A stretch of 27,317 bases of DNA from Cytophagaceae bacterium. Lineage in GTDB: Bacteria > Bacteroidota > Bacteroidia > Cytophagales > Spirosomataceae. Shown piece after piece: positions 7,501 through 24,538 of the stretch. The notes below the pieces were generated by a model. It was not told where the DNA came from. It did no database searches and saw only the letters and a program-made list of their open reading frames with translations. A program made the translations under genes and the position numbers. Each line of letters opens with the position of its first letter. The first letter of the stretch is position 1. The stretch is from contig CANHCG010000001.1 of NCBI GenBank assembly GCA_947459055.1, positions 1 through 27,317 of the forward strand, given 5' to 3'.

Positions 7501-7641
7501 AATTATTGGGGTGGACCAAATCCAGAAACATCTGCACAAGGAAACGGTCAAGGTGACGGTGGTAACTTGAGCCCAGGTGTGGATTTATCCAACTACCCAG
7601 TTCCAAGAACTTTCACGATTGGAGCAAACTTTAACTTTTAA
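4534..7641 (+). CDS. SusC/RagA-family TonB-dependent outer-membrane transporter
   Basis: This is the outer-membrane importer for a glycan or oligosaccharide, powered by TonB and capped by the SusD-like lipoprotein encoded next to it. The 1035 residues begin with a signal peptide (hydrophobic 17-29, probable cleavage near A-Q at 31-32). A carboxypeptidase-regulatory-like beta-sandwich follows at about 37-106, then the SusC signature region L-N-E-I-V-V-V-G-Y-G (111-120). The plug domain runs from about 125 to 240, with V-R-I-R-G, P-L-Y-V-V-D-G and the conserved G-S-R-A-A-N-G-V-V-L-I-T-T. The rest is a 22-strand-type barrel ending in phenylalanine (N-F-N-F), the usual outer-membrane assembly signal. 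The gene is noticeably rich in GGT and CGT codons, consistent with high expression. It is first in the sugar locus, 34 nt ahead of susD, and the substrate cannot be read from sequence. Confidence 0.96.
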   Translation: MKNNSIIHRIGIRSGGIFLALFLILSTTLMAQQQAASGKVKGSDGGPVIGASISVVGTSRGASTDGEGNFKINVSKNETLRISSVGYNTTNVVFTGQKSIEVTLTVDNKTLNEIVVVGYGSQNKKEITGAVQTIAYKDLKDLPVTQIAQKLQGQLAGVQINQTTGKPGTGMNVRIRGQLSVSAGSDPLYVVDGFPITGSIGAMNPDEIEDISILKDASSTSLYGSRAANGVVLITTKKGKGAGMNVSFNAFTGVQNVPMKGRLDMMDAEEFAQFKKESFEDAKQPVPAEFQNPSQYKGKNNDWYDALLNKDAPMSSYNLSISSNKERSRTSLVAGVLQQKGVVRNTDYQRYSLRLNSTYDISDKVTVGFNVAPQMVYDNTPRTDGDRGTGILFNALHTWPVMPIYEADGKTLTKFNRFPASTGNIFAYANWVRSADELINETTTTNLLSNAFIEVEPIKGLKFKSSMNGEILRTKFFFFNPSNATSAINTPIPTTAVSIRQNVENLSWLNENTLTYSKTLWDDHKFELLGGYTNQYFRQESTQVQADTYADDRLPTIQGAININRGATVSGVQEWSLTSYLARLNYNYKGKYLFNAAIRSDGSSRFGANNRWGTFPSVGAGWVVSDEAFMADLPAVSFMKIRGSWGIIGNNNLGNYTSYALINNTVNGVFGNTVATGAAVSSLANPNLGWETTTQLDLGLDLNLFNNRVNFAYDYYTKNTTNLLYAVQIAQESGFGNFNDNIGEIKFWGHEFSLNTTNTTGKVKWTTNANISFNRNVVVSLAPGIDRVYGSFHITKVGQPFGQFYGVIADGVYKNAADLAASPKVPGRSTVGSIKLKDANGNGVIDYGGNADDRVIMGNPFPDFVYGITNNVTYGNWDFNIIGSGSYGNQLLVRHIYSTANLDGVFNMVDGAKYRFRSEENPGLGMYGTTVGGGNVTGIERDWMNSRFVADASYFTIRNVTLGYTFAKPTKVYKSVRVYASCQQAYVFTNYWGGPNPETSAQGNGQGDGGNLSPGVDLSNYPVPRTFTIGANFNF

Positions 7642-7675: not shown

Positions 7676-9190
7676 ATGAAAAATAAAATCATATTAAGCT
7701 GTTTGCTAGCCCTAGGATTATCAGGTTGCACAGCTGAGTTTTTGGAAATCACTCCAGAAACAAGTTTAAGTTCGGTTACGTTTTTTAAGACAGAAGCCGA
7801 TTTTACGCAAGCAGTGAATGCTTGTTACGTTCCTTTGCGTACGATTTACAATGATCGTTCGTACTTGTTATCTGAAATGCACTCTGATAATACCTATTAC
7901 TATCGTAATACGGCATTTGGTGCAACAGAGCAGCAAGAAGATTTGGCGGATTTTTCCATCCCTGTATCGAATAATTTGACGACAAACACGCACGTATTAA
8001 ATCAATATCGCCAAGATTATTTGATTATTGCGCGTGCTAATCAAATTTTAGCTTTGATTGATAAAGCTGATTTTGATGCAGCTGCTAAAGCAAATCTTAA
8101 GGGTCAAGCGCAATTTATGCGTGCTTTTGCCTATTTTGAAATCTATCGTTATTTCAACAAAGGGCCTTTGCAATTGACTCCAGTAGCAAACAGAGAACAA
8201 GCGGCTGCTCCACTAGGAACTGCGGATGATATTTCTAAAATCATCATCGGTGATTTGACGGGTGCTATTGCTGGATTAAAAACAAAGGCTACTCAAGAGC
8301 CTGGTCGTGCGACGGCTGGAGCTGCTAGAGCTTTATTAGCTAATCTATACTTGATTCAGAAAAACTGGGCAGGTGCTGAAAAGTTATGTCGGGAGATTGT
8401 GGCAGAAGGAAGTTATTCCTTGATGCCAGATTATAACAATGCCTTTACAACGAGTACGGGAAATAAGAATAATGCGGAGAGCGTTTTCGAAGTTCAATAT
8501 CAAGAAGGTGCTAATGGTTTCCAAGGATCATTCATGTATAACTTCTTACCTCGTCCAATGACTTCAGCTGAATTATTTACTTTAGCAGGTACATCAAATC
8601 CACAGCCTCAAACAGGTGAAGGTAATAATGCACCGATGCCTGAGTTGATTAATTCATATCCTGAAGGTGATTTGCGTAAAAATGCTTCGATTGGATATAT
8701 CACTTGCTCGTCAACTTTATGGCAAGCAAAAACTTATCCTTACATCAAGAAGTTTGTTAGAACTCACTCCTTGAATGGTAATCATGGAATGAACTGGCCA
8801 ATTTTCCGTTATTCGGAGGTTTTGTTATTCTTAGCAGAGGCTTTAAACGAGCAGGGAAAAACTGCTGAAGCGGCTACATTTATGAATCAAGTTCGTAAGC
8901 GTGCAGGTTTAGCTGAAACGACAGCTTCTACTCAAGCGGCCTTCCGTACGGCTTTAATGGATGAGCGTCGTTGGGAGTTGGCTTTTGAAAATAAGCGTTG
9001 GCATGACTTAGTTCGTACTGATACGTTTAAAGAAAGAATCACGGCTAAAGGCAATGCAATCAAGGCGGATCCATTTGCTCATTACTATGAGAGAGGATAT
9101 ACATTGCGTAGTAACTCATTCACGGTAATTGAAAAGTATTATCCTTTACCAGCTGATGAGGCTGCCTTGAATCCTAATTTAACTAAATAA
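7676..9190 (+). CDS. SusD/RagB-family surface glycan-binding lipoprotein
   Basis: This is the partner lid of the SusC transporter and binds the substrate at the cell surface. The 504-residue precursor has a short lipoprotein signal with lipobox L-S-G-C, placing the lipidated cysteine at residue 18. The N-terminal SusD region (E-I-T-P-E-T-S-L-S-S-V-T-F-F-K-T-E) is typical. So are the helical TPR-like segments (G-Q-A-Q-F-M-R-A-F-A-Y-F-E, and the A-E-A-L-N-E-Q-G-K region near 390). The C-terminal D-E-R-R-W-E-L-A-F-E-N-K-R-W-H-D-L-V-R-T block is highly characteristic of the family. The length is normal. It starts 34 nt after susC and is followed by a strong intrinsic terminator, so susC-susD can form its own abundant transcript. 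Confidence 0.95.
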   Translation: MKNKIILSCLLALGLSGCTAEFLEITPETSLSSVTFFKTEADFTQAVNACYVPLRTIYNDRSYLLSEMHSDNTYYYRNTAFGATEQQEDLADFSIPVSNNLTTNTHVLNQYRQDYLIIARANQILALIDKADFDAAAKANLKGQAQFMRAFAYFEIYRYFNKGPLQLTPVANREQAAAPLGTADDISKIIIGDLTGAIAGLKTKATQEPGRATAGAARALLANLYLIQKNWAGAEKLCREIVAEGSYSLMPDYNNAFTTSTGNKNNAESVFEVQYQEGANGFQGSFMYNFLPRPMTSAELFTLAGTSNPQPQTGEGNNAPMPELINSYPEGDLRKNASIGYITCSSTLWQAKTYPYIKKFVRTHSLNGNHGMNWPIFRYSEVLLFLAEALNEQGKTAEAATFMNQVRKRAGLAETTASTQAAFRTALMDERRWELAFENKRWHDLVRTDTFKERITAKGNAIKADPFAHYYERGYTLRSNSFTVIEKYYPLPADEAALNPNLTK

Positions 9191-9203: not shown

Positions 9204-9238
9204 ATAGAGCCGCTGAGTTTTCGGCGGCTCTATTTTTT
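9204..9238 (+). terminator. Intrinsic terminator or attenuator after susD
   Basis: A 10-bp perfect stem (ATAGAGCCGC at 9204-9213 with GCGGCTCTAT at 9224-9233) can be extended by a G-U and a G-C pair, and six T residues follow (9233-9238). It sits 13 nt after the susD stop and ends only 9 nt before the next start codon. Genes downstream run in the same direction, so this is either a true end with a separate promoter nearby or a partial terminator that lowers expression of the catabolic genes relative to susCD. Confidence 0.88.
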
Positions 9239-9247: not shown

Positions 9248-10426
9248 ATGCCAATTCTCAATTTTATTTTGTTGATTTTTTCTGTTTTCGGCCTCTTATT
9301 TTCGGCTGCAAATCCTCCTAAGTTTAAAAAAACGATATTGACATCTACCTTCGTTTCAGAAGGTGTTTGTATTGGTGATGTAAATAAAGATGGGAAAAAA
9401 GATATCATAGCAGGTGCTTATTGGTTCGAAGCCCCTCGCTGGACTCAGCATCAATTCACGACTGAATTACGTTACAACAAATCTCTAAAAGCATTTCCTG
9501 AAGGTTACGCTTTTAAAGTGGATGAAGGCTATTCCGACTCCTTTGCGAATTTTTCTGCGGATATTAACCATGATGGTTGGGTCGATGTAATCAAAATCGG
9601 TTTACCCGGTGAAGCTATTTATTGGTTGGAGAATAATCACAACAAACCAGGCTTTTGGAAAAGACATGATTTGTATACTTCCTTGGGCAACGAATCTCCT
9701 TTATTCGAAGATGTGAACGGGGATGGTCGGCGTGATTTAATCGGCAATGATTCCAAAAACAAACAAGTAGTCTGGTTAGAGGCTCCGGGTAAAAAAGATA
9801 CGACATGGGTCGCTCATGTTATTTCATCTAATCCAAACTTAGGCACGCACAAATATACGCACGGCCTTGGTTTTGCTGATTTAAACAAGGATGGCCGGAA
9901 GGATGTCATCATTAAAGAGGGATGGTGGGAAATGCCCAAAGACCTTCGTCTTGCCTGGACATTTCATCCATTAAACTTAAAGCATGACTGCTCACAAATC
10001 TATTTGCAGGATTTTGATGGAGATGGGGATTTAGATATTTTAACTTCCTCGGCGCATGATTATGGTACCTGGTGGCATGAAATCAAAAATTTGGCCACAG
10101 GGGAGGTCGAGACACATGAAATCCAACGTAGTTTGTCGCAGACGCATTCGCTCCAACAGGTAGATGTAAATGGCGATGGACAACAAGATTTCATCACTGG
10201 TAAACGTTACATGGCTCACAATGGGAAAGATCCCGGAGAATTTGAAAAAGCTTTATTAGTTTGGTACGAGTTTAAGCCGACTCCATCGCCAACCTGGGTG
10301 GAACATGTGATCGACGAAGATTCCGGTGCTGGCATTCAGTTTTTTGTGGAAGACATGAATAAGGATAAGAAAAGCGACCTTGTTTTGTCCAATAAAAAAG
10401 GGGTTTTTCTCTTCGAAAAATTATAA
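9248..10426 (+). CDS. Secreted FG-GAP/VCBS-repeat beta-propeller protein
   Basis: This is a 392-residue exported protein. Residues 3-20 form a hydrophobic signal peptide (cleavage near S-A-A-N), with no lipobox. Seven calcium-binding loops of the D-x-N-x-D-G-x-x-D type start near residues 44, 105, 155, 211, 255, 307 and 369; the last is less perfect (D-M-N-K-D-K-K-S-D). They recur every 44-62 residues, as expected for a seven-bladed FG-GAP/VCBS propeller. Aromatic stretches such as G-A-Y-W-F-E and H-D-Y-G-T-W-W-H-E could line a sugar-binding face. No catalytic motif is recognised, so it may bind substrate or act as a periplasmic or surface lyase-like propeller. It lies between susD and the DUF1080 gene; ATG 9248 is only 9 nt after the terminator T-run. 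Confidence 0.85.
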   Translation: MPILNFILLIFSVFGLLFSAANPPKFKKTILTSTFVSEGVCIGDVNKDGKKDIIAGAYWFEAPRWTQHQFTTELRYNKSLKAFPEGYAFKVDEGYSDSFANFSADINHDGWVDVIKIGLPGEAIYWLENNHNKPGFWKRHDLYTSLGNESPLFEDVNGDGRRDLIGNDSKNKQVVWLEAPGKKDTTWVAHVISSNPNLGTHKYTHGLGFADLNKDGRKDVIIKEGWWEMPKDLRLAWTFHPLNLKHDCSQIYLQDFDGDGDLDILTSSAHDYGTWWHEIKNLATGEVETHEIQRSLSQTHSLQQVDVNGDGQQDFITGKRYMAHNGKDPGEFEKALLVWYEFKPTPSPTWVEHVIDEDSGAGIQFFVEDMNKDKKSDLVLSNKKGVFLFEKL

Positions 10427-10498
10427 ATAAAATTTAATCAACCCAAACCATCATATTTTAAAAATATTGAATTAATTTAAACCAATAAACCTATTAAC

Positions 10499-11275
10499 AT
10501 GAAAATCAATTACCGTAGCCTTGTCTGGTTGCTTGTTCCTTTGCTGGGAATTTACAGCCCGAGTTTCGCCCAAAAGGATAAATCATCCGAAAAGGGATTT
10601 AAGAAAATTTTTGATGGTAAAACACTGAAAGGATGGGAGGGAGATCCTGTTTACTGGAAAGTTGAAAATGGAAGCATTGTGGGTGAAATTACCCCGGCAA
10701 CTTTATTGAAGCGAAATACCTTCATTATTTACCGAGATGCAAAACCTGCTGATTTCGAATTGAAATGTGAGGTAAAAATCACAAAAGAGGGAAATACAGG
10801 AATCAACTACCGTTCGGAAGAGTTATTACCTGATTTGCCTTTTGCTTTAAAAGGGTATCAAGCGGACATCGATGGTGCGATTCGTTACACGGGTCAAAAC
10901 TATGAGGAACGCGGACGTACCACCCTAGGTTATCGGGGAGAGATTGTTTCGGTAAATGAGCAAACGGACCCAGAAGTGAAGAATAATCTTCGTGCTTATT
11001 CAGCTCGTAACGCCTGGTTGCCTCGTAAGGTGACCGGATCATTAGGTAATTCAGATTCATTGAAAACGAAAATCAAATCGGAAGATTGGAATGAAGTACA
11101 TTTGATTGTGAAGGGTAATCGTTTGTTGCATTATGTCAATGGAATTTTAATGAGTGACGTCACGGACTTGGATAAAGTAAATGGCAAATCAGAGGGCTGG
11201 TTAGGTGTGCAAGTGCACGTAGGTCCTCCAATGAAAGTAGAGTACAGAAATATTCGTATCAAAAACCTAAAATAA
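10499..11275 (+). CDS. DUF1080-family protein (3-keto-disaccharide hydrolase domain), exported
   Basis: This 258-residue protein has a clear signal peptide (hydrophobic 7-20, cleavage after S-F-A at 24) and one DUF1080 domain (PF06439, concanavalin-like fold) filling residues 33-256. Recognisable family segments are F-D-G-K-T-L-K-G-W, W-K-V-E-N-G-S-I-V-G, N-T-G-I-N-Y-R-S-E, G-Y-Q-A-D-I-D-G and the terminal G-L-Q-V-H-like strand (W-L-G-V-Q-V-H-V-G-P-P). Members of this family have been linked to cleavage of 3-keto-glycosides, a route that needs prior oxidation at C3 of the sugar. It is exported, so it probably acts in the periplasm. It is followed 1 nt later by the propeller/cytochrome gene, suggesting a coupled oxidation-cleavage pair. 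Its exact substrate is unknown. Confidence 0.9.
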   Translation: MKINYRSLVWLLVPLLGIYSPSFAQKDKSSEKGFKKIFDGKTLKGWEGDPVYWKVENGSIVGEITPATLLKRNTFIIYRDAKPADFELKCEVKITKEGNTGINYRSEELLPDLPFALKGYQADIDGAIRYTGQNYEERGRTTLGYRGEIVSVNEQTDPEVKNNLRAYSARNAWLPRKVTGSLGNSDSLKTKIKSEDWNEVHLIVKGNRLLHYVNGILMSDVTDLDKVNGKSEGWLGVQVHVGPPMKVEYRNIRIKNLK

Positions 11276-11276
11276 T

Positions 11277-13994
11277 ATGAAATCAATAGTTAAGTATTTA
11301 GTAGCGCTCGTTGCGGTAGTTGGCCTAGGAAGTGCCGGTTACAACAGTTTATTTAAGATTGAACCTGCTCACGTAGAGGGTGCCAATCCTAAGTTGGATA
11401 AAATCAGATTACAACCTGGTTTTAAGATTGAACACTTAATAAGCCCATCTGATGAAAAAATGGGTTCTTGGGTTTCGATGACTTTTGATGATAAAGGTCG
11501 TATGATTTGTTCAGATCAATATGGTGGATTATATCGCTTGACTATTCCTGCGATCGGATCAGCCAGTGTGAAACCAAAGGTAGAGAAATTGAAATTTGGT
11601 AAAGGGGTTGATACCTTAGGTATCGGAAACGCGCATGGTATGTTGTATGCATTCAATAGTCTTTATGTGATGGTGAATGCTAGAGCAACAAGACCAGGTG
11701 CAACAGCTAACCCAGGACGTGGACCTGCACCGGGCTTTACACCAAGAGGTAGTGGATTGTATCGTGTGCAGGATTTAGATGGTGATGATCAGTACGACAA
11801 AATTACTTTAATGAAAGAATTTAAAGGAGAAGGAGAACATGGTCCGCATAGTATTATTTTATCACCAGATAAGAAATCTATTTTCTTGATTTCAGGAAAT
11901 CACACGGATGTGCCAGAAATGGATGCATATCGTTTGCCTAAAAACTGGCAAGAAGATAATATCTTCCCATTAATTAAGGATCCGCGTGGACATGCGAATG
12001 ATCGTATGGCTCCGGGTGGATGGATTGCAAACATTGATCCAGAAGGTAAAAAATGGGAATTGATTTCGGCAGGTTATCGGAATGCTTTTGATATCGCATT
12101 TAATGAAACAGGTGATTTATTTGCCTATGATGCGGATATGGAGTGGGATTTCGGTTTACCTTGGTACCGCCCTACGCGTATCTGTCACGTAACCAGTGCT
12201 TCTGAGTATGGATGGAGAACCGGTAATAGTAAATGGTCTACGACCTATCCTGATAATTTATCTCCTGTATTGAACATTGGGCAGGGATCACCTACGAGTT
12301 TATTGTCTTTGAGAGATGCTAAGTTTCCAGCGAAGTATAAGAAATCGTTGTTAGCTTTTGACTGGACCTTTGGTATTGGTCACTTAATTAAATTAAAAGC
12401 TTCTGGATCTACATTCTTGGCAGATCGTGAAGAATTTATTTCAGGTATTCCATTGCCTCTGACAGATGGTGTGATTGGCCCTGATGGAGCACTTTATTTC
12501 ATGGCCGGTGGTCGTCGTTTAGAATCGGATGTATATCGCGTTTCTTACGTAGGCACGGAGGAAGCGAGTGCAAAAACATTAGTTGGCTCGCCTAACCCTT
12601 TAAATGAATTACGTCGTAAGATTGAGCAATTTCACCAAGGGCCAAATCCTGCAGCTTTGGCAGTGGCATGGCCTAATCTGAAGCATCCAGATCGTTTTAT
12701 TCGTTATGCGGCCCGTTTAGCTTTAGAGCACCAACCAATCAACGAGTGGAAAGATAAGGCATTGACTGAAAAGGATCCGATCGCAGCAACTCATGCTTTG
12801 ATTGGCTTAATTCGTCAAAGCAAGCCTGAATTTAAATCTGCGATTTACACGTCCTTATTGGCCGTAGATAACAAGGCTTTCACGGAGTCTCAAACGTTAG
12901 ATATTTTACGTGCCTATGAATTAGCGATGTTGCGTTTGGGTATGCCAGATGCGGCGACCACGGCAAAAATCATTGCAAAATTTGATTCAAAATTCCCATC
13001 GAACCGGATGAATATGGATCGTGCATTGAGTCGTTTATTGATTCCTTTGGAGGCGCCAAAAGTAATCGAACGGACTTTAAAATTAATGGAAACAAAAGAT
13101 ACAGCTAGTGCAACTGCCTATCGTGTAGAAACGGCTACTTCTTCTGCGGATTTGATTATGCGTAATCCACAATATGGTACTGATATCGCGAAGATGTTGG
13201 AAAAAATTCCACCGGCTCAACAAACCTACATGGCTACCATGTTGTCAGCGGCCAAGAATAATTGGACTCCTGAATTACATGAGCGTTATTTCTCATGGTT
13301 CAAAAAAGCTTTTGCTTATTCAGGTGGTCGTAGTTATATTGGTTTTATCGACCGTGCACGTAAATTAGCTTTGAAGAATGTTACAGAATCTAAGCGTGCC
13401 TATTATGACAAATTGGGTGGTGCAGATATGTTGACCAGCAGTGGTAATGATATTGCGGCTATCAATTATCCAAAAGGTCCAGGTAAGCAATGGAAGTTGG
13501 ACGATGCAGTTGCTTTATTAGACGCGCCTTTAACCGATCGTGATTTCCAAAACGGTAAGTCTATGTTTGCAGCGACTACTTGTATTCGTTGCCATGCATT
13601 AGGTGGAGAAGGTGGAGGAAATGTAGGCCCTGACTTGACGAACTTGGGAACTCGTTTCTCGAAGAAGGATATGTTAGAGTCGATCATAGACCCGAACAAA
13701 ACAGTTTCAGATCAGTATGCAGCGACTCAAATCATGTTGAGAAATGGTACATCTGTGATTGGCCGTGTGACTAATGAGGATAAAGTAGCTTACTATGTTT
13801 CTCAAAATCCATATGCGCCAGAGCAAATCGAAAAAATATTAAAGAAAAATGTTCGTTCGGTTAAATACTCACCGGTGTCTAGTATGTTGCCAGGTTTAAT
13901 TAACAGCTTAAACGCCGAGGAGTTAAAAGATTTAATGGCTTATTTAATGTCAGGTGGAAGCGAAAGCAACGCCATGTTTAAAAAGAAGCAATAG
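11277..13994 (+). CDS. PVC-type propeller/cytochrome c fusion (putative membrane-bound dehydrogenase)
   Basis: This 905-residue exported protein begins with a hydrophobic signal or anchor (residues 6-22). Residues about 40-430 form a beta-propeller of the putative membrane-bound dehydrogenase type, distantly like PQQ sugar dehydrogenases, with G-E-H-G-P-H-S-I, G-Y-R-N-A-F-D-I-A-F and a long D-A-D-M-E-W-D-F-G-L-P-W-Y-R-P segment. A helical HEAT-like middle follows (about 440-740). The C-terminal cytochrome c domain has the heme motif C-I-R-C-H at 769-773, then N-V-G-P-D-L-T and a probable axial methionine in S-S-M-L-P-G near 874. It is the only heme protein in the locus and could pass electrons from sugar oxidation to the respiratory chain. 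PQQ or other cofactor use is not established. The gene starts 1 nt after the DUF1080 stop. Confidence 0.88.
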   Translation: MKSIVKYLVALVAVVGLGSAGYNSLFKIEPAHVEGANPKLDKIRLQPGFKIEHLISPSDEKMGSWVSMTFDDKGRMICSDQYGGLYRLTIPAIGSASVKPKVEKLKFGKGVDTLGIGNAHGMLYAFNSLYVMVNARATRPGATANPGRGPAPGFTPRGSGLYRVQDLDGDDQYDKITLMKEFKGEGEHGPHSIILSPDKKSIFLISGNHTDVPEMDAYRLPKNWQEDNIFPLIKDPRGHANDRMAPGGWIANIDPEGKKWELISAGYRNAFDIAFNETGDLFAYDADMEWDFGLPWYRPTRICHVTSASEYGWRTGNSKWSTTYPDNLSPVLNIGQGSPTSLLSLRDAKFPAKYKKSLLAFDWTFGIGHLIKLKASGSTFLADREEFISGIPLPLTDGVIGPDGALYFMAGGRRLESDVYRVSYVGTEEASAKTLVGSPNPLNELRRKIEQFHQGPNPAALAVAWPNLKHPDRFIRYAARLALEHQPINEWKDKALTEKDPIAATHALIGLIRQSKPEFKSAIYTSLLAVDNKAFTESQTLDILRAYELAMLRLGMPDAATTAKIIAKFDSKFPSNRMNMDRALSRLLIPLEAPKVIERTLKLMETKDTASATAYRVETATSSADLIMRNPQYGTDIAKMLEKIPPAQQTYMATMLSAAKNNWTPELHERYFSWFKKAFAYSGGRSYIGFIDRARKLALKNVTESKRAYYDKLGGADMLTSSGNDIAAINYPKGPGKQWKLDDAVALLDAPLTDRDFQNGKSMFAATTCIRCHALGGEGGGNVGPDLTNLGTRFSKKDMLESIIDPNKTVSDQYAATQIMLRNGTSVIGRVTNEDKVAYYVSQNPYAPEQIEKILKKNVRSVKYSPVSSMLPGLINSLNAEELKDLMAYLMSGGSESNAMFKKKQ

Positions 13995-14002
13995 AATAAA
14001 AG

Positions 14003-15061
14003 ATGTCAGATTGGACCGGAAAAATATCGAATCACAAGCAATTAGGAGGCATTGAAACGTCCGTTTTAGATAATGGGGCGGGGCGAGGAGTCCGAATTGC
14101 TTGGATCGATACCGGGTCTGGTTTTCGCTATAAAGTGGTCCTTGATCGGGCGATGGATATTGCGGAGGCATTTTTTAACCAACATAGTTTGGCGTGGATT
14201 AGCCACGTCGGTGTCACCGGACCTCAACCGATGTCGAACCAAGGAATTCATTGGCTTCGTACGTTCGGAGGAGGTCTTTTGGCTACGTGTGGATTAGACC
14301 ATGTCGGTGGACCCGACGAAGACGAGCACGGTGTGCGCGGCGTGCATGGGCAAATTAGTAATTTGCCGGCAGAGATTATTTCGATCCAGCAGCCTGACCT
14401 TTCGTCTGGAAATTTGGATATGTCGATTACGGGTATTATTCGCCAACATAAAATTTTTGGTCCTTGTCTTACCCTAAAACGTACCATTTCAGGTCGTTTG
14501 GGCGAGGCCAGTTTGCAAATCCATGACGAAATCCTCAATGAGGGAAATGCAGAAGCACCTTTGATGCTTTTGTATCACTTTAATTTCGGTTGGCCCTTTG
14601 TAGATAAAGGAACGGATATTGTTTGGAAAGGAAGTTACCGTGTGGCATCAGATCCTAAATTATTGGGAATACCCAACCTTAAAAAATGCCCGGATCCCTT
14701 GGATATTCATCAAGGTGGTGGGGAATCGGTCGTTTACATTGACCCTGAAGTGGATGAAAGCTATCGCGTTCAATGTGGACTTTGGAATGAGGAAAAGCAA
14801 TTAGGTGTTCGGATTGAATTTGATAAGCGGGAATTGCCTTGGTTGACTAATTGGCAACATTTTGCTAAAAACGAATACGTCACCGGTATTGAACCTGGAA
14901 CGAATCCACCCATTGGACAAAAAGCGGCGAGGGAATCCAATACACTAACTATGTTGGGACCCGGCGAAAAGAAAAAAGTAACAGTTAAATTAACGGTTTT
15001 GGCGCCATCAAATGACCCAAACCATCATGACGATAATTTTTTACATTTAATACAAGAATAA
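14003..15061 (+). CDS. DUF4432 protein (galactose-mutarotase-like fold)
   Basis: This is a 352-residue cytoplasmic protein with no signal peptide, assigned to the DUF4432 family of mutarotase-like sugar proteins. The diagnostic segments are G-R-G-V-R-I near the N-terminus, V-V-L-D-R-A-M-D-I-A-E-A, F-G-G-G-L-L-A-T-C-G-L-D-H-V-G-G-P, H-G-Q-I-S-N-L-P-A-E, a central L-L-Y-H-F-N-F-G-W-P and the C-terminal G-I-E-P-G-T-N-P region. Aldose epimerases of this fold interconvert anomers, but the biochemical role of DUF4432 is not settled. It starts 8 nt after the cytochrome gene, and its TAA overlaps the next ATG by one base, so it is co-translated with the cupin. Its place among the dehydrogenase and isomerase genes suggests it acts on a free keto or aldo sugar. 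Confidence 0.85.
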   Translation: MSDWTGKISNHKQLGGIETSVLDNGAGRGVRIAWIDTGSGFRYKVVLDRAMDIAEAFFNQHSLAWISHVGVTGPQPMSNQGIHWLRTFGGGLLATCGLDHVGGPDEDEHGVRGVHGQISNLPAEIISIQQPDLSSGNLDMSITGIIRQHKIFGPCLTLKRTISGRLGEASLQIHDEILNEGNAEAPLMLLYHFNFGWPFVDKGTDIVWKGSYRVASDPKLLGIPNLKKCPDPLDIHQGGGESVVYIDPEVDESYRVQCGLWNEEKQLGVRIEFDKRELPWLTNWQHFAKNEYVTGIEPGTNPPIGQKAARESNTLTMLGPGEKKKVTVKLTVLAPSNDPNHHDDNFLHLIQE

Positions 15062-16269
15062 TGAGCAATAATGCAGCAAAAGCGCTAGAACAAGGAAAAG
15101 GGATTTTACGGTTAGCACCGACATGGGTTCCTAGGTCTTTCTGCGTGCCAGGTAGACGAATCAAATTACATCCAGATGATTATTACGTATTGGGCGGTGT
15201 CCGTGGAGGAATCGACGAGCGTTGGTTATCTTCCACTACGCCAGCAAAAAACGGTCCATTAACTGGCGAAAATGAAGGCTTAAGTGCCGTGGTTTTTGAC
15301 AATGATGGAAAAGAGGAGCAAATTCTATTAATCGATGTGATCGAAGCCTTGAAAGGAGAAATTATTGGTGACCGCCTATGGAACGAATATCAATCTTGGC
15401 CGATGTACTCGAAGTTTTTCGATAACATGGGACCTTTGCCGCACCATATTCACCACAACGATGAACATGCGGCAAAAATAGGCCAATTAGGGAAGCCTGA
15501 GGCTTATTATTTCCCCCCGCAATTGAACAACCATGGCGGTGATTTTCCATATACGTTTTTTGGTATTGCGCCGGGAACAACGAAGGAGCAAATCAAAGAA
15601 TGTTTGATGAATTTCACGAAAGGCGATAATAAAATTACCATGTATTCACAGGCGTTTCCATTGATTCCAGGAACGGGCTGGGATGTGCCTCCAGGGATGT
15701 TGCACGCGCCAGGAAGTATGTGTACGTATGAGCCACAAAAGGCTTCTGATGTGTTTGCGATGTATCAATCGTTGGTCAATGAAGCAGTCATTCCAGAGGA
15801 ATTATTGTGGAATGGAACACCGAAAGAAGAGGTGGGTAATTATGACCAATTGATGGAAGTGATCGATTGGGATTTAAATACGAATCCAAATTTATTAGAA
15901 ACTCGTTTCATGCAACCGATTCCAGTGGAAGATGAAGCAGCCATGGCAGCTAAAGGATATTCTGAAAAATGGGTATGCTACCGTTCGGATGCTTTCAGTG
16001 CGAAAGAATTGACCGTATTCCCTGGTCAAACCGTAACCATTACAGATGCGGCAGCCTATGGCTTGATTATGATGCAAGGACATGGAAAAATGGGTGTTTG
16101 GAATATAGAGACGCCGGCGATGATTCGCTATGGCCAATTGACCAATGATGAATTTTTTGTGACTGAAAAAGCAGCTAAGGCGGGCGTTCAGATTACGAAT
16201 CATTCGTCCACGGACCCAATTGTGATGTTAAAGCACTTTGGTCCTCAAAATCCAGATTTGAAATTATAA
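15061..16269 (+). CDS. Cupin-fold protein related to type I phosphomannose isomerase
   Basis: This is a 402-residue cytoplasmic protein with the layout of a type I mannose-6-phosphate isomerase-like double cupin. Likely metal ligands are in P-H-H-I-H-H-N-D (127-134), G-K-P-E-A-Y-Y (Glu147) and P-P-G-M-L-H-A-P-G (His215), the His-Glu-His pattern of zinc isomerases. A second cupin domain spans about 290-400. It lacks the typical phosphomannose isomerase N-terminus and is not a housekeeping ManA. I infer isomerisation of a non-phosphorylated sugar or keto sugar, because no kinase is encoded in the locus. It overlaps the DUF4432 stop by one base and precedes the TIM-barrel gene by 19 nt. Other cupin activities, such as an oxygenase, are not excluded. 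Confidence 0.75.
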   Translation: MSNNAAKALEQGKGILRLAPTWVPRSFCVPGRRIKLHPDDYYVLGGVRGGIDERWLSSTTPAKNGPLTGENEGLSAVVFDNDGKEEQILLIDVIEALKGEIIGDRLWNEYQSWPMYSKFFDNMGPLPHHIHHNDEHAAKIGQLGKPEAYYFPPQLNNHGGDFPYTFFGIAPGTTKEQIKECLMNFTKGDNKITMYSQAFPLIPGTGWDVPPGMLHAPGSMCTYEPQKASDVFAMYQSLVNEAVIPEELLWNGTPKEEVGNYDQLMEVIDWDLNTNPNLLETRFMQPIPVEDEAAMAAKGYSEKWVCYRSDAFSAKELTVFPGQTVTITDAAAYGLIMMQGHGKMGVWNIETPAMIRYGQLTNDEFFVTEKAAKAGVQITNHSSTDPIVMLKHFGPQNPDLKL

Positions 16270-16288
16270 GCTTTAAAACCTACATAAT

Positions 16289-17311
16289 ATGAATACGTTT
16301 CCAAAATTACATAATGCCACATGGCCGGGTATTGTGGGCAAGGGGCCAGATTCGGAGCCCGTAATTTCTTTAGATCAGATGTTGCAAATGACTGCAGCAG
16401 CTGAAGTGAATGGAGTAAAATTTGATGGGGTGGACATCGGTTTGTTGCCGCCTCATTTTGATATCGAAAGTGGAAAAGAGGGAGCGAAGGCCTTAGCAGA
16501 TAAGGTAGCTGCGCATGGCTTAGAAATTGGAAGTTTAGTGGCGCCAATCTGGGCTGGAAATGCGATGGGCGACAAAGATGCTCGTGATACCTTTGTAGAC
16601 ATGGTACGTCGTTCGTGTGAAATCGGAGCGGAATTACGTAAAATCGGAATTCGTCCGAATGGCATCATTCGTATTGATTCGGCTGCGGGTGTGGCGGATT
16701 GGGCGAAGGATCCAAAGGGAAATTCAAAATTGATCGTGGATACATTCCAACGGGCTTGTGACGTAGCTGCCGATTTCGGTGAGCGCTTAGCTGCCGAAGG
16801 AGAAATTTGTTGGGGTGGAATGCATTCTTGGCGAAATATGATTCAGACGCTTGAGGCGGTGGATCGTCCTAATATCGGTTTCCAAGCGGATATGTCGCAT
16901 ACCTTGTTGTACACCATGGGTTATAATTGCCCAGAAGATCGTATTTTGCCAGCGGATTACAACTGGGAAGATCGTGACGTTTTGCGCAGTGCCTTGAAGG
17001 AATTGACGGCAGCTTTACGTCCATGGACAATTGATTTCCACGTAGCTCAAAATGATGGTACAGTTCACGGAACTGGAAGTCATGATAAAACGGGTCGTCA
17101 CTGTCAGGCGACGGATCCAAATGGTAAATTAGTTGTGGCTGAAGATGCTGGTTTCTGGCTTCGGGATGAAAAAGGGGAGTTGACCAAGGCGTTCAAGCAT
17201 ATTTGTTGGGATGGCTGTATGTTCTCTAATGCTGTCATGGAGCAACAAAAAACTTGGAATGATATTTTAGCAGCGATGATTCAAGTGCGTAATGCGCATG
17301 GTTGGTCTTAA
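16289..17311 (+). CDS. TIM-barrel sugar isomerase/epimerase (AP-endonuclease-2 superfamily)
   Basis: This 340-residue cytoplasmic protein belongs to the xylose-isomerase-like TIM-barrel group. Candidate divalent metal ligands are Glu172 (E-G-E-I-C-W-G-G), Asp201 (Q-A-D-M-S-H-T), His251 (D-F-H-V-A-Q-N-D-G) and an acidic residue near 308 (C-W-D-G-C-M-F). In characterised relatives such enzymes isomerise or epimerise keto sugars. Some act with a Gfo/Idh/MocA dehydrogenase to eliminate the aglycone from 3-keto-glycosides, as in C-glycoside deglycosylation. The Gfo/Idh/MocA gene follows directly (11 nt), which makes a joint pathway likely. The exact reaction here, epimerisation versus beta-elimination, cannot be chosen from sequence. 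Confidence 0.88.
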
Positions 17312-17322
17312 TTTTTATTGAT

Positions 17323-18461
<1,139 letters not shown>

Positions 18462-18471
<10 letters not shown>

Positions 18472-19952
18472 GCGATTGCCTGCTTGATTTAAAGGATGTT
18501 TCCTTTTCATATTCGGGTGCGCCCATTTTGCGTTCAGTGGATTTACGCTTGAATAAAGCTGAAATTCATGCGTTGGTGGGTGAAAACGGAGCGGGTAAAT
18601 CATCTTTATTTAAGTGTATTATGGGAATAATCTCTCCATCAGATGGGGAGATTATTTTTTTTGGAGAAAATATCAAAGGTCTTTCGGTAAGGGAAGTTTT
18701 GGGGAAAGGAATTTCGATGATTCATCAGGAATTGATGTTGATCCCCGAATTAACTGTTGCAGAAAATATCTATTTAGGCCGTGAACATGCTGGAGGTAAA
18801 CGGATGTCTTTGTCGGCGATTCAGCTGGCGGTTCAGGATTTATTCGATCGCTTTGGATTGGATATTCCGGTGGATGCGCGGGTGAAGGATTTGTCGATTG
18901 CGCGCCAACAAATCGTTGAAATCATGCGCTCCGTCTCCCAAGAAGCAAAATTGATTTTAATGGATGAACCTACGTCCTCTTTGACTGACGCCGAAATTCA
19001 GTTTTTTACTCGATTAATTCGCGATCTAAAAGAATCTGGCGTTGGTATTTTGTTTACTTCCCATAAAATGGAGGAGATTTTCGGTTTTGCGGATGTTTTG
19101 ACGGTTTTACGCGATGGGGAAGTAGTTGGAACTTATCGTTCAAATGAAATTGATGCACATGCACTGGTTCAAAAAATGGTTGGTCGGGAACTAAAGGATT
19201 TTTATCCAAAGGCCGAGGTGACCACTGGAGATCTAATTTTAGAAGTCGAAAATCTGGGATTAGTCGGTGTTTTTGAAGGTATTAATTTCGAGGTTCGGGC
19301 GGGAGAAGTGGTCGGATTGGCAGGATTGGTGGGGGCCGGAAGAACGGATATAGGCCAAAGTATTTTTGGAATTCAACCTTATACCTCAGGCGAAGTTCGA
19401 TATCAGGGAAAAGTCTTTACACCCAAACATCCTTCAGAGGCTTTGGAAGCGGGCATGGCCTATTTAGGGGAAGATCGGAAGGAACTGGGCATTATTCCGG
19501 AAATGAATATTACAGAAAATATGACCTTGGGATTGATGCGTTTGTATCAAAAATGGCAGCGTATTTTATTTCATAAGGAAAAAAAGGTGACCGAGGAAAA
19601 GTCGGAGGCGCTAAGCATTCGCATGGCGCATGCGGGTCAGAAAATCCAGGAATTGAGTGGCGGAAATCAACAAAAGGTTTTGTTTGGCCGGATGCTTTTG
19701 AATATGCCTAATTTATTGATTTTAGATGAACCTACTCGCGGAATTGATGTGGTTTCTAAATTTGATATTTATCGATTGATTTTGGAATTGAAACAGGCAG
19801 GGAAGGGTATTTTATTGATTTCCTCGGACATGACCGAATTGTTGGAAATGAGTGATCGAGTTGTGGTAATTTCGAAAGGGGGCCAACGAGGAGAATTAAA
19901 CAAGCAGGAAGCGAGTCCTGAACGAGTTTTACAATTAGCTTTGCATGCATAA
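18462..19952 (+). CDS. Sugar ABC importer ATPase, RbsA/MglA type
   Basis: This 496-residue peripheral inner-membrane ATPase has the two fused ABC domains of the carbohydrate CUT2 family (ribose, galactose, xylose importers). Domain 1 has G-E-N-G-A-G-K-S (40-47), L-S-I-A-R-Q-Q as signature and [12 protein letters not shown] as Walker B. Domain 2 has the usual degenerate Walker A (G-L-V-G-A-G-R-T-D), an intact signature L-S-G-G-N-Q-Q-K and Walker [13 protein letters not shown]. This intact/degenerate pattern is normal for RbsA. ATG 18462 overlaps the dehydrogenase stop by 10 bp, and the permease starts immediately after the TAA. CUT2 systems import monosaccharides, so the cargo is probably a monomer released in the periplasm. 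Confidence 0.93.
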
Positions 19953-20894
19953 ATGAAGAATCTATTTTTAAAGAGTCCTACGGGAGGAATATTTATTGCT
20001 TTGGTGTTGGTTTGCCTCCTGTTTGGTAGTCTAACATCGCGGTTTTTTACGCCGATGAACTTATCGGTAATTCTGAACCAAGTCTCAGTTAATGCCATTT
20101 TAGCTTTTGGTGTCACCTTTGTGATTATTGCTGGTGGAATTGATTTATCGCTCGGGTCGCTTTTAGCGGTCAGCGGGGTGATTGTCGCTTTACTATCGCA
20201 AGAAGGTACTTATGCGTTGTGGATTGGTCTTTTACTTACCTTGGTTGCTGGTATGGCGATGGGGGCTTTGAATGGCGTGCTGGTGGTACTAACGAAGGTG
20301 CCGCCGTTCATTGTGACATTGGGGACGATGACGATTGGTCGGGGTGCGGCGCTTTTATTGAGTAAGGGTCGGCCGATTTCAGATTTAAACGAGTCTTTGA
20401 ATTTTTTAGGTAGTGGGGATATTGGAGGTATTCCGGTGCCGATTATCTTTTTGGTGATTTCATTTATTTGTTGCCAAGTCCTTCTAAGCAAAACCGTTTT
20501 TGGGCGCTATGTGAAGGCCATAGGTGGAAATGAAATGGCGGCTTTTGTCGCGGGTGTGCGTGTGAATCGGATCAAATTATGGGTTTACATTATTTCGGGT
20601 TTATTTGCTGCCTTGGCAGGTATCTTATTGACGGCTCGGATTCAAACGGGCCAACCGAATGCTGGTTTAGGTTTTGAATTGGATGCGATTGCTGCCGTGA
20701 TTATCGGCGGAACGAGCACGCGTGGAGGAAAGGGAACGATTACGGGGACTTTGTTGGGCGTCTTGTTTATCGGGGTGATCAATAATGGCTTAGATTTAAT
20801 TAATGTTTCTGCCTATTGGCAGCAGGTTATTATGGGTGGAATTATTATTTTGGCAGTGGTATTGGATGGGCTTTACCAAAAAATGAAGAAATAA
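19953..20894 (+). CDS. Sugar ABC importer permease, RbsC type
   Basis: This 313-residue integral inner-membrane protein has about eight to ten hydrophobic helices. Family signatures are V-I-I-A-G-G-I-D-L-S-L-G-S near residue 60, K-V-P-P-F-I-V-T-L-G-T-M, and the C-terminal G-F-E-L-D-A-I-A-A-V-I-I-G-G-T-S block. It forms the homodimeric channel driven by the RbsA-like ATPase. Its ATG directly abuts the ATPase stop, and the binding-protein gene follows 1 nt after its own stop, so the three are one translation unit. Confidence 0.94.
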   Translation: MKNLFLKSPTGGIFIALVLVCLLFGSLTSRFFTPMNLSVILNQVSVNAILAFGVTFVIIAGGIDLSLGSLLAVSGVIVALLSQEGTYALWIGLLLTLVAGMAMGALNGVLVVLTKVPPFIVTLGTMTIGRGAALLLSKGRPISDLNESLNFLGSGDIGGIPVPIIFLVISFICCQVLLSKTVFGRYVKAIGGNEMAAFVAGVRVNRIKLWVYIISGLFAALAGILLTARIQTGQPNAGLGFELDAIAAVIIGGTSTRGGKGTITGTLLGVLFIGVINNGLDLINVSAYWQQVIMGGIIILAVVLDGLYQKMKK

Positions 20895-20895
20895 G

Positions 20896-21792
20896 ATGAA
20901 AATACGTGTATTACTAGTTTTGTTGGCTTGCTTAATTGGCAGCGGATGTTCGGAGAAAAAAAAGGATAGCTTGGTTATCGGTGTTTCGATGCTGAGTATG
21001 CAAAATGAGTTTATTCAGCAGGTAGCGGATGCGTTGGAGAAATCGGCAAAAACGTCGAATGTGGAATTAATTGTGGTGGATGCCGAGCGTTCTTCTTTGA
21101 AGCAGGTGGAGCAGGTGGAGAGTTTTATTAGCCAACAAGTCGACGCCATCATCCTCAATCCCTGTGAATTCGAAGCGAGTTCTCCTGCCGTGGAAAAAGC
21201 GCAGAAAGCCGGAATACCGATCGTGAATGTGAATTCATCCACAAAATCGAAGCCTGATGCATTTGTGGGTTCGGATGATGCGGAATCGGCGAATATGGCG
21301 ATGGAATTAATTGCAAAGCATTTGAATGGTAAAGGAAATGTATTAATGATTCAGGGGTATATGGGACAGGCGGCGCAGTTGGACCGTGAGCGTGGCGCCA
21401 AGGCTGTATTAGCAAAATACCCTGGATTGAAACTTTTAGCTTCTCAAACAGGCGAATGGGATCGTGCCAAGTCGATGTCCTTGATGGAAAACTGGATTCA
21501 GTCATTTGGGGATCAGGTGCAAGCTGTTTTTGCCCAAAATGATGAAATGGGATTAGGCGCGGTTCAGGCTTTAATGGATGCGAAGAAAAAAGCGAATGTC
21601 TATGTGGTGAGTGTGGATGGGATTCAAGATGCGCGCAAGTCGGTGGAGCAGGGCAATTTAGATGCGACGCTCATTCAAAATGCGGAAAAACAGGGTTCTG
21701 AATCCTTGCGCATGGCCATTGAATTAGCTCAAAAGAAAAAAATAAAGGAATCCGTTATTATGATTCCTTTTGAGATTTTTCAGAAAAAATAG
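20896..21792 (+). CDS. Sugar ABC importer substrate-binding protein, RbsB type (lipoprotein)
   Basis: This 298-residue periplasmic-binding-protein-like protein has a lipoprotein signal. The hydrophobic stretch of residues 5-14 leads to G-S-G-C with the lipidated cysteine at 18; Gly at position -3 is a slightly loose lipobox, tolerated in Bacteroidota. The mature protein shows the type I sugar-binding fold: V-I-G-V-S-M-L-S-M at the N-terminus, D-A-I-I-L-N-P in the first lobe, F-V-G-S-D-D near residue 120, a Q-N-D-E-M-G-L-G-A-V-Q-A-L region, and V-V-S-V-D-G-I-Q-D-A in the second lobe. Such proteins bind monosaccharides such as ribose, galactose, xylose or related polyols. It ends the 17-kb co-directional locus, and its stop lies 3 nt from the end of the converging esterase gene. 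Confidence 0.92.
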   Translation: MKIRVLLVLLACLIGSGCSEKKKDSLVIGVSMLSMQNEFIQQVADALEKSAKTSNVELIVVDAERSSLKQVEQVESFISQQVDAIILNPCEFEASSPAVEKAQKAGIPIVNVNSSTKSKPDAFVGSDDAESANMAMELIAKHLNGKGNVLMIQGYMGQAAQLDRERGAKAVLAKYPGLKLLASQTGEWDRAKSMSLMENWIQSFGDQVQAVFAQNDEMGLGAVQALMDAKKKANVYVVSVDGIQDARKSVEQGNLDATLIQNAEKQGSESLRMAIELAQKKKIKESVIMIPFEIFQKK

Positions 21793-21795
21793 GGT

Positions 21796-23046
21796 CTATT
21801 TGATGAGCTTATTGGCAAAATCAATGTATTGATCCCAATCGTAGGCGTTAATGTCATGATTTCCTTCTCGGATATGGTAGCGGACATGCTGGCCCACGGG
21901 CGTATTTAAGGCAGGAAATTCGTTTTTTCCGAGGCCTGATTTTCCAAATAATTGGTAGACAGGCTCGGCTTGTTGGCCTCCCATAAATTCCCCTTTTGGA
22001 TCGGACCATTGGTCACCTACGGCGCTGGCGATGTATAGCGGTCGGGGTGCTATAAGGCTAAGTAAAATGTGGCTATCAAAGGGCAATTCATTTTCCTTAT
22101 AGGCATAATTTTTATAGTCTTTGTAAAACCAATGGGGGAAACTATTCGTGATGCGCCATAGGTTTTCTCCGTAATTCCGTCGCGAAATGGCCGCGCCGCC
22201 TTCTCCTGATTCATTCGAAATAACGGCGGCATAGCGGGAATCATTGGCTCCTGCCCAAATCGCTGCTTTGCCTAAGCGCGAATGACCGTGTAAAATGATT
22301 CGTTTTGCGTCGATTTGCGGGATTTTTTCAAGGAAATCAACCGTCCGATTTAATCCCCATGCCCATGCGCCATTCGCCGACCACTCATCCGCTTGCAAAC
22401 CTAATTCCTTAGCTAATAAGGTACGAACGCCTGTCAGGTAGCCATCTGGTTTATCTTCTTCGAAATCACCACAGGCGATGGTGATGCTACCGTATCCAGC
22501 GGCGATCAGTTTTTCGAATTGCCAGCGAGAGGCCCAGGCACCTCTTGATTCTTCTTGTCCTTTGTTATTGATATAGGCGGGTTTGTTGTTGCAAACTGTA
22601 TATTTCTCAAACAATGGGATATTGGGGTCGTTTGAGGTAGTTTGATTGCCACAAAAATTCAGGCCGATGAATACGGGCACCTTCGTTTTTACTTTTGGCA
22701 AAACTCCAAGCACGGTCACGTCATAGATTCCGGCAAGGGTTAATTTCCAAACATATTGGGTGGCTTTTCCTTGTAGGATGTCGGTTTGGGAAATCAATTG
22801 GTAGGATTGGGCGATTTTTTTCTTGGGCATTTTTCCGAACATCATTTGTTCGTATTTGCCTAACCAATAATTTCGTTGATTTCCCCAGGCCTTGGCTGAC
22901 TGAATGATGGTTCCATCGGGTTTTTGGAGGGGATTTGGAAGGGTAAATGGGGCGATTTTTGATTCGTCGTAATTGGCCACAAAGGCTTGTTGGGCCATGG
23001 CATGCATACTAACTAGTATACTTAGCAAGGTTAAGATTTTTTTCAT
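21796..23046 (-). CDS. CE15-type glucuronoyl esterase, exported
   Basis: This 416-residue alpha/beta hydrolase carries a signal peptide (M-K-K-I-L-T-L-L-S-I-L, cleavage after A-M-A). I start it at ATG 23046 rather than the TTG nine bases upstream, because the ATG gives the classic signal sequence. The nucleophile motif G-H-S-R-L-G-K places the catalytic serine at residue 256. S-N-E-S-G-E-G-G-A-A, F-P-H-W-F and L-I-A-P-R-P-L-Y-I-A-S-A are typical of bacterial CE15 enzymes, and the catalytic histidine lies in E-G-N-H-D-I-N-A-Y-D-W (about 397). CE15 enzymes cleave the ester between glucuronic acid side chains of xylan and lignin alcohols. It converges on the rbsB-like gene with a 3-nt gap and no terminator between. 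Regulation together with the sugar locus is possible but not shown. Confidence 0.88.
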   Translation of the reverse strand: MKKILTLLSILVSMHAMAQQAFVANYDESKIAPFTLPNPLQKPDGTIIQSAKAWGNQRNYWLGKYEQMMFGKMPKKKIAQSYQLISQTDILQGKATQYVWKLTLAGIYDVTVLGVLPKVKTKVPVFIGLNFCGNQTTSNDPNIPLFEKYTVCNNKPAYINNKGQEESRGAWASRWQFEKLIAAGYGSITIACGDFEEDKPDGYLTGVRTLLAKELGLQADEWSANGAWAWGLNRTVDFLEKIPQIDAKRIILHGHSRLGKAAIWAGANDSRYAAVISNESGEGGAAISRRNYGENLWRITNSFPHWFYKDYKNYAYKENELPFDSHILLSLIAPRPLYIASAVGDQWSDPKGEFMGGQQAEPVYQLFGKSGLGKNEFPALNTPVGQHVRYHIREGNHDINAYDWDQYIDFANKLIK

Positions 23047-23152
23047 AGCTGTCAAATAGGTATCGCAAGTTAATAATTTGAAAATATGATTGTTGTTAGG
23101 CAGGTTAATTTGTTTCGTTTTATTTTCTTAAATTCGAGGATAATTTAGGCAT

Positions 23153-23935
23153 ATGGAATTTATCAAGAAAATCGAATTCACTACCGCGGAGGAAACCATC
23201 GCGAACTTAAAGCAGGCCATCACGCGGTATAAAGTCATTCATTTATCGGGATATCAATTGCCGATTCCGATTCAGCAGTTTTACACAGATTTATCAGATT
23301 CGATTGGGGAGATTTTTAATGAGGATGAGGATTTATTGACGGGGGAGCGAAAGGATAACCGTTGGATCGATATTTCCTATGACCCAGACGTTCAGGACCG
23401 TTACCGGAGTTCGAATACACGCCAACCATTGCACACCGATGATTCCTATGTGGAATTAGGAAACGAAAAGTCATTGCAATTTTTCTTTTGCGAGTCTCGG
23501 GCGGCTTTTGGAGGTGCGACTACCTTTTTTGATTTGCCAGAATTGGTTGCTTGTATGAAATTGGATGGCCAGCAGGAATTGTTGGATCGTTTAATGAGCA
23601 CGGTTGTGAATTTTGATAAGGCGGGGAATAAGAAGGTGAGAAAGATATTAGATGAGGATGAGAAGGGCTGGTTAGCGAACTGGAATTATTACTGCATCGA
23701 TACCCAAAATACCCCTGAAGCTTTGCAATTATGTGAAGATTTTCATCACTTTTTGGAGACGCGCATTGTGCCTTCGGGATTGATTACGCCGGTTCAATTG
23801 GAAAAAGGTGACGCGGTATTCTTTCATGATGACCGGATTTTGCATGGTCGGAATGCCTATTTTGCGACAAGCAAAGGTGAGCGTTGTTTGATCAAAGGAA
23901 AAATCATTTTGGATCCGACCTTTGAATTGGTGTAA
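23153..23935 (+). CDS. TauD/TfdA-like Fe(II)/2-oxoglutarate-dependent dioxygenase
   Basis: This 260-residue cytoplasmic protein has the iron facial triad of the family: His94 and Asp96 in L-H-T-D-D, and a distal His231 in R-I-L-H-G-R-N. Arg244 (G-E-R-C-L-I) is the likely 2-oxoglutarate anchor. The double-stranded beta-helix core around R-A-A-F-G-G-A-T-T-F-F-D-L is typical. Such enzymes hydroxylate or oxidatively cleave small molecules using O2 and 2-oxoglutarate; the substrate is not evident. It is divergent from the CE15 gene (106 bp between their start codons), and the next gene overlaps its end by 14 bp. Nothing links it firmly to the sugar locus. Confidence 0.85.
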   Translation: MEFIKKIEFTTAEETIANLKQAITRYKVIHLSGYQLPIPIQQFYTDLSDSIGEIFNEDEDLLTGERKDNRWIDISYDPDVQDRYRSSNTRQPLHTDDSYVELGNEKSLQFFFCESRAAFGGATTFFDLPELVACMKLDGQQELLDRLMSTVVNFDKAGNKKVRKILDEDEKGWLANWNYYCIDTQNTPEALQLCEDFHHFLETRIVPSGLITPVQLEKGDAVFFHDDRILHGRNAYFATSKGERCLIKGKIILDPTFELV

Positions 23936-24533: not shown

Positions 24534-24538
24534 TTAAG

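Follow-up and report, generated by a model that had tools for sequence, protein, structure and literature searches.

Organization of the locus

The stretch of DNA considered here, which we call the window, is 27,317 nucleotides long and constitutes the entire contig C1 of a draft genome of a Cytophagaceae bacterium (2.08 Mb in 348 contigs, 73% complete). Ten co-directional genes on its forward strand, at 9248-21792, encode in turn an FG-GAP repeat protein, a DUF1080 protein, a haem protein with a beta-propeller, a DUF4432 protein, a cupin, a triosephosphate isomerase (TIM) barrel protein, a Gfo/Idh/MocA dehydrogenase (Gfo) and the three parts of an ATP-binding cassette (ABC) importer, RbsA, RbsC and RbsB. 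A sequence-only reading had proposed that this locus degrades a glycan or glycoside by redox chemistry instead of classical glycoside hydrolases, using the enzyme set of a 3-keto-sugar pathway. We found that it contains a real cassette which is widely shared in Bacteroidota, and we give about even chances to the view that this conserved cassette serves oxidative, non-classical glycoside breakdown.

All the families named in that reading are present and co-directional, with gaps of 0-72 nt or small overlaps as it had claimed, but it did not list the first gene, that of the FG-GAP protein (9248-10426), and the DUF1080 gene starts only at 10499. The spacers are 72 nt between the FG-GAP and DUF1080 genes, 1 nt between those of DUF1080 and the haem protein and 8 nt between the latter and DUF4432; the DUF4432 and cupin genes overlap by 1 nt and the cupin and TIM genes are 19 nt apart. 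With ATG 17323 as its start, Gfo follows the TIM gene at a distance of 11 nt; the alternative start TTG 17302 would create an overlap. Gfo and RbsA overlap by 10 nt, and 0 nt and 1 nt separate RbsA from RbsC and RbsC from RbsB. Reading the N-termini by eye, we recognized signal-like sequences in the FG-GAP, DUF1080 and haem proteins and a lipobox-like one in the RbsB binding protein; the DUF4432, cupin, TIM and Gfo proteins had no signal-like N-terminus. The compartment split described earlier, with DUF1080 and the haem protein exported and the dehydrogenase cytoplasmic, can thus be seen in these N-termini.

Conservation and linkage of the cassette

Conservation was examined in two samples. 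The first comprised 296 genomes drawn from the phylum Bacteroidota, the genome of the window included. The cupin was found in 18 of these genomes, with an identity of at least 50% in ten, and TIM in 11; a cupin at this identity and TIM occurred together in 9 of the 296 (hypergeometric probability 1e-14, with phylogeny ignored). We then looked at the neighbourhoods of the 17 other genomes with a cupin. All eight whose cupin is more than 70% identical to that of the window carry DUF1080, DUF4432, TIM and Gfo alongside, and seven of the eight also have the haem protein beside the cupin, whereas the 20 kb covered for the eighth (L030) did not show one. A further neighbourhood, L035, spans a contig of just 3.7 kb and comprises the cupin, a piece of the binding protein and one other gene. 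No other catabolic gene of the cassette was found in the eight neighbourhoods of distant cupins (36-39% identity), and a Pfam scan of one such locus, L036, found an FGGY kinase and an aldo-keto reductase, which suggests that the distant cupin relatives have a separate sugar isomerase role. Genes of these two kinds lie near the distant cupins at L036:9400-14288 and, as read by eye, at L043:9476-14499.

For the second sample, a TIM alignment was scanned against one genome per species of 84,980 species and yielded at least 583 relatives. The loci named in this work are the best 80 of these at least 583 matches, so the counts describe near relatives. Their titles are of Bacteroidota groups, save one ‘uncultured bacterium’ (L080), and the TIM of the window shares 97% identity with that of L062, a metagenome bin of Cytophagaceae, and 85% with those of two Aquirufa species. 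Full flanks are available for 59 of the 80 loci, and the 21 short ones were excluded from the counts that follow. TIM is present in all 59 by construction, since it was the query; Gfo was found in 59, the cupin in 58, DUF4432 in 56, DUF1080 in 54 and the haem protein in 43. All four cytosolic genes occur together in 56 loci and all six core genes in 40, and 325 of the 329 core genes share their strand. The full loci fall into 11 patterns of content or order, with DUF1080 lying downstream of Gfo in 15 of them, for example. The linkage survives rearrangement and therefore argues for one pathway. Departures from the set include L093, without cupin and DUF4432, and two further genomes, G134 and G211, in which TIM is present and the cupin absent.

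The remaining genes behave differently. SusC was found in 24 of the full loci, SusD in 22, RbsC in 16, RbsB in 15 and FG-GAP in 9; some of the SusC, SusD, FG-GAP, ABC ATPase and second Gfo labels in these loci denote distant paralogues. SusC and SusD occur together in 21 loci, partly as distant paralogues only, and several of the FG-GAP matches have merely 30-34% identity. The claim that the genes travel together was clearly borne out, while the grouping of RbsABC and susCD with the core was not supported; RbsABC, present in 15 of 59, was rejected as a core element. RbsABC, SusCD and FG-GAP are additions to the cassette.

The exported proteins

The DUF1080 protein (10499-11275), which has a signal-like N-terminus, belongs to PF06439 (3keto-disac_hyd), with 120.8 bits against a gathering cut-off of 26.8. 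One of the solved structures related to it, 8rr2, is entitled 3-keto-disaccharide hydrolase domain-containing protein, and the Pfam family itself is now named 3-keto-disaccharide hydrolase. This family match agrees with the role in 3-keto-glycoside chemistry predicted earlier, in which the protein may take part.

The interesting lead of the cassette is the exported haem protein (11277-13994), in which a propeller of the GSDH fold is followed by a helical repeat and a mono-haem c domain, and which we propose to be a periplasmic sugar dehydrogenase. It scored 96.3 bits for TIGR02603 (cut-off 68.15), with the haem motif CIRCH at residues 769-773, and its N-terminal match to TIGR02604 reached 60 bits, under the cut-off of 122.2; it thus falls outside the PVC-type CxxCH proteins, defined as having both families over their cut-offs. 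In fold comparisons, ranks 1-8 in Foldseek and 1-16 in VIA were all GSDH/AA12 sugar-dehydrogenase propellers, so the protein has the fold of the pyrroloquinoline quinone (PQQ) sugar dehydrogenases, and hhalign matched it to GSDH with 96.7% probability and E 4e-10 over 334 columns (16 of 20 fetched loci were used for the GSDH alignment). His188 and Arg268-Asn269 align on the GSDH histidine and Arg-Asn motif and are invariant in 37 of 37 members of the haem protein family. The GSDH Arg-x-Arg, present in 14 of 16 GSDH proteins, falls on Pro394 and Thr396. All three are presumably cofactor-site residues of GSDH; a lysine known from soluble glucose dehydrogenase varies among the GSDH proteins themselves. 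The haem protein of the window had no match to Pfam GSDH at E 1, and 2 of the 37 members matched it, at best with E 0.027. No pqqE gene over the cut-off was found in nine genomes, whose hosts might take up PQQ from outside.

Other candidate oxidases are encoded elsewhere in the genome of the window. There are 12 matches resembling BT_2158, the best of 465 bits and all under the cut-off of 750, and four matches to Gluconate_2-dh3 at other places, one of them a fragment; feeding of the pathway in trans is therefore possible. On contigs C75, C146 and C296 of this genome (G000), other DUF1080 genes have BT_2158-like dehydrogenase genes within 2 kb, and these are candidates for ordinary 3-keto-glycoside loci. 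Among the 11 DUF1080 contigs of the genome, four have a BT_2158-like gene, three a haem-propeller gene and none both, with C142 on the opposite strand and C40 at 19 bits. In the single-contig genome G249, each of the two partners lies within 10 kb of 1 of 17 DUF1080 genes (counted on 17 of 18 DUF1080 matches and on 18 of 22 TIGR02604 matches, these 18 representing 14 merged places). Mutual exclusion of the two partners beside DUF1080 was not used as evidence.

The cytosolic enzymes

Gfo (17323-18471) is nearest, among curated families, to levoglucosan dehydrogenase (NF052479), with 334.3 bits against a cut-off of 650. Its best solved relatives are 4h3v and 6a3f, and 5ya8, a scyllo-inositol dehydrogenase with L-glucose activity, is among them. 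It gave 42.5 bits for BT_2158_fam, against a cut-off of 750, and has no signal-like N-terminus; as the sole Gfo protein of the operon it leaves the latter without an exported BT_2158-type glycoside 3-dehydrogenase. No protein of the operon exceeded the NCBIfam cut-off of any named glycoside 3-dehydrogenase, and on this point the earlier proposal found no support.

The TIM protein (16289-17311) is a xylose-isomerase-like barrel (PF01261) and is proposed to be a keto-sugar hydratase or epimerase from its family and from the fold matches of its predicted model (pLDDT, the predicted local confidence, 89). The first Foldseek rank was AtHYD, a 2-hydroxy-3-keto-glucal hydratase; in a second fold comparison IolE, sugar isomerases and tagatose epimerases were level with AtHYD or slightly ahead of it. 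With so many tied matches, the idea that the fold pins the function of TIM was rejected. A second barrel family of the neighbourhoods, TIM2, gave a weak profile match to TIM (56% probability) in which Asp201, His204 and His251 fall on conserved TIM2 positions; the profile comparison of TIM with a third, TIM3, gave nothing.

The cupin (15061-16269) had no Pfam or NCBIfam match at E 0.001. A weak profile match over part of its length to the mannose-6-phosphate isomerase 1qwr (E 1e-4) is what remains of the earlier description as phosphomannose isomerase (PMI)-like. His129, His131, Glu147 and His215 are invariant in 12 of 12 aligned sequences. The weak PMI likeness and the occurrence of a distant relative near a sugar kinase are consistent with the cupin being an aldose-ketose isomerase, which we propose as its putative role. 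The DUF4432 protein (14003-15061; PF14486, 329 bits) is aldose-1-epimerase-like, with 92.5 bits to 3ty1, and may be a mutarotase.

Optional partners and neighbouring genes

The FG-GAP protein is an exported accessory protein (FG-GAP_3, 102.5 bits) which found in PHROGs one weak family only, of unknown function. The optional importer consists of the RbsA-type sugar ABC ATPase (18462-19952; ABC_tran), whose XylG/AraG/RbsA-like NCBIfam matches were every one under the cut-off, the RbsC-type permease (19953-20894; PF02653, 171.7 bits) and the RbsB-type substrate-binding lipoprotein (20896-21792; PF13407, 214.5 bits). Upstream, also on the forward strand, lie two further optional partners, a SusC/TonB-dependent transporter (4534-7641; Plug and CarbopepD_reg_2) and a SusD-like glycan-binding protein (7676-9190; SusD_RagB and SusD-like_3), which as an adjacent pair are of the SusCD type. 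A 13-bp hairpin with a T run on the same strand (9204-9233), found in a pattern scan, separates susD from the catabolic genes. The scan gave 28 sites against a shuffle mean of 17.7, among which this hairpin ranks first in pairs and in G-C pairs; as a possible terminator or attenuator it would uncouple the expression of susCD.

That the locus is free of glycoside hydrolases holds for the 20 open reading frames scanned, that is, for the window; a glucuronoyl-esterase-like gene (21796-23055, reverse strand; PF22244, 102.7 bits) stands head-on to the operon, 3 nt past the end of RbsB. Such a gene is near the cassette in 5 of the 80 loci, and in two Aquirufa loci (L049 and L050) both share one strand. 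Farther downstream are a TauD-family dioxygenase gene (23153-23935), which three close relatives (L044, L045 and L062) likewise have in their loci, and a tRNA-Thr gene (24538-24611).

The commonest further neighbours in the 80 loci are TIM2 (29), a ThuA-like-looking family (18), TIM3 (17) and an alpha/beta hydrolase (17). For these neighbour families, examples of 7 of the 22 most widespread, plus one sulfatase, were scanned with Pfam. The TIM2 example of L058 is psicose-3-epimerase-like with 161 bits, under the cut-off of 300, and Glu147, Asp180, His206 and Glu241 are kept in 17 of 17 aligned TIM2 sequences. The ThuA-like example of L071 had no Pfam match, while similar-looking genes of L030 and L145 have one. 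A GDSL, DUF7133 and cytochrome c protein is near the cassette in 17 of 80 loci; four of the 16 full loci lacking the first haem protein contain it, 3-8 kb away and once on the other strand, and so do G134 and G211, whose loci were fetched for TIM without cupin. Two examples scored 212 and 223.8 (L114) bits for TIGR02604, above the cut-off of 122.2. Nine loci have, as read by eye, exported Gfo proteins of the twin-arginine type near the cassette, and four of the nine are without the haem protein; found both with and without it, these Gfo proteins were rejected as its replacement. The Gfo protein of L096 scored 139.5 bits for BT_2158_fam (cut-off 750), possibly a low value because a 381-aa piece of its 455 aa was scanned. 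No GMC-type dehydrogenase was recognized in the 22 families, and gene pairs of about 560 and 240-270 aa in L085 and L070 looked, by eye, unlike GMC with a small subunit. Planctomycete-type PSCyt1-PSCyt2-PSD1 and DUF1501 genes are near the cassette in 10 of the 80 loci (L054, L071, L078, L098, L100, L105, L107, L113, L118 and L120).

A proposed pathway and its alternatives

Glycosides can be cleaved oxidatively as well as by classical hydrolases. We hypothesize four steps, drawn from fold, family and linkage, on the basis of the computed gene content, conservation, linkage, fold class and signal-like N-termini. The exported haem protein would oxidize a sugar ring, C3 being the likeliest position, and hand the electrons via its haem to the respiratory chain. 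The exported DUF1080 protein, judged by its family, would then cleave the activated glycosidic bond and release a 3-keto-sugar or a 2-hydroxy-3-keto-glycal, which in this lineage RbsABC would import. In the cytosol TIM would hydrate or epimerize the product, Gfo would reduce the keto group with NAD(P)H, DUF4432 would mutarotate and the cupin isomerize the resulting hexose, perhaps from allose through psicose to fructose if reduction yields the C3 epimer. The earlier idea of redox chemistry in place of hydrolases gains from the cassette, the DUF1080 family and the compartment split, but loses RbsABC and susCD as core parts, and its C3 chemistry stays conditional. Similarly, the suggestion that the haem protein may be the first oxidant gains from the sugar-dehydrogenase fold and the GSDH profile match, with oxidation at C3 as a proposal. 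That this protein is a respiratory-chain-linked periplasmic glycoside 3-dehydrogenase which does not bind PQQ classically is a tentative idea, and we regard it as rather unlikely; if true, it would mean a new class of C3-oxidizing enzyme dedicated to feeding DUF1080 and would give this branch of CxxCH haem proteins a function. If the cassette performs oxidative cleavage, the route is widespread in Bacteroidota, with at least 583 related loci for TIM alone, and an obscure haem-propeller family is tied to sugar oxidation. DUF4432, cupin, TIM and haem protein gain one testable pathway context.

Could the ring be oxidized at C1 instead? Several points weigh against oxidation at C3. Known GSDH-fold enzymes oxidize mainly C1 and make lactones, and sugar-acid genes lie beside two relatives of the cassette: KDGal (2-keto-3-deoxygalactonate)-kinase-like, KDPG (2-keto-3-deoxy-6-phosphogluconate) aldolase and gluconolactonase genes upstream at L028:1566-4166, and, downstream at L145:13658-17843, genes of a GntP gluconate permease, of a sugar-acid dehydratase of the IlvD/EDD kind and of the FAH family, next to a variant of the cassette that gave no match to the cupin, DUF4432 or Gfo. 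These genes fit C1 oxidation equally well and, together with the C1 preference of known GSDH, make this rival a real one. The haem propeller would then be an aldose 1-dehydrogenase making a periplasmic lactone, catabolized as aldonate, and DUF1080 would bind or cleave something upstream. The alpha/beta hydrolase of 17 loci, whose L096 example is nearest to 3-oxoadipate enol-lactonase, under its cut-off, would suit such a route, but by eye it has no signal peptide. The sugar-acid genes were seen in two loci, with no search made across all of them, and C1 oxidation leaves DUF1080, the isomerase-type cupin and TIM unexplained. We consider it unlikely.

A small glycoside, anhydrosugar or cyclitol might also enter the cell uncleaved, to be oxidized by Gfo and processed by TIM through elimination or hydration, as in levoglucosan catabolism, while the exported proteins serve another step. 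The affinities of Gfo to levoglucosan dehydrogenase and 5ya8, the IolE-like fold of TIM and the importer in 15 of 59 loci are in its favour. Gfo is, however, far under the cut-off of the levoglucosan equivalog, RbsABC is absent from 44 of 59 loci, and DUF1080 and the haem protein are linked more often than the importer. This route appears quite improbable. Very doubtful is the last alternative, that the 3-keto-glycosides are made in trans by the BT_2158-like dehydrogenases, all sub-cut-off and three of them on DUF1080 contigs, or by those associated with Gluconate_2-dh3, and that the haem protein serves as a carrier of electrons or as a sensor: this would suit the 16 full loci without it, but it lies within the cassette in the other 43 and, beyond a carrier domain, has a propeller of an enzyme class.

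Comparison with known systems

In a glycoside breakdown route of the proposed kind, the cassette would resemble the 3-keto-glycoside pathway of the BT2156-2160 type in Bacteroides, which includes DUF1080; BT_2158 and BT_2159 appeared as NCBIfam names in our scan. Both bring together DUF1080, Gfo/Idh/MocA and TIM barrel genes in Bacteroidota, but the operon of the window has no BT_2158-type exported dehydrogenase and has instead the GSDH-fold haem c protein, DUF4432 and the PMI-like cupin. With levoglucosan catabolism by LgdA and its partners it shares a Gfo relative of levoglucosan dehydrogenase and a TIM barrel, while its Gfo is far under the LgdA-type cut-off and the exported DUF1080 and haem proteins, the cupin and DUF4432 are extra. 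TIM is similar in length (340 aa against 339) and in its first Foldseek rank to AtHYD of the Agrobacterium glucoside pathway (PDB 8ro4), although this ranking is tied with many isomerases and the sequence identity is about 15%. The haem protein agrees with the PVC-type CxxCH proteins in its TIGR02603 domain and not in its TIGR02604 score. It differs from the PQQ sugar dehydrogenases of GSDH/AA12 in the missing Arg-x-Arg, in the lack of a pqqE over the cut-off in the nine genomes and in falling short of the Pfam GSDH cut-off, but it has their propeller fold, histidine and Arg-Asn motif, and the haem c domain fused to this propeller is a feature which it shares with the quinohaemoproteins.

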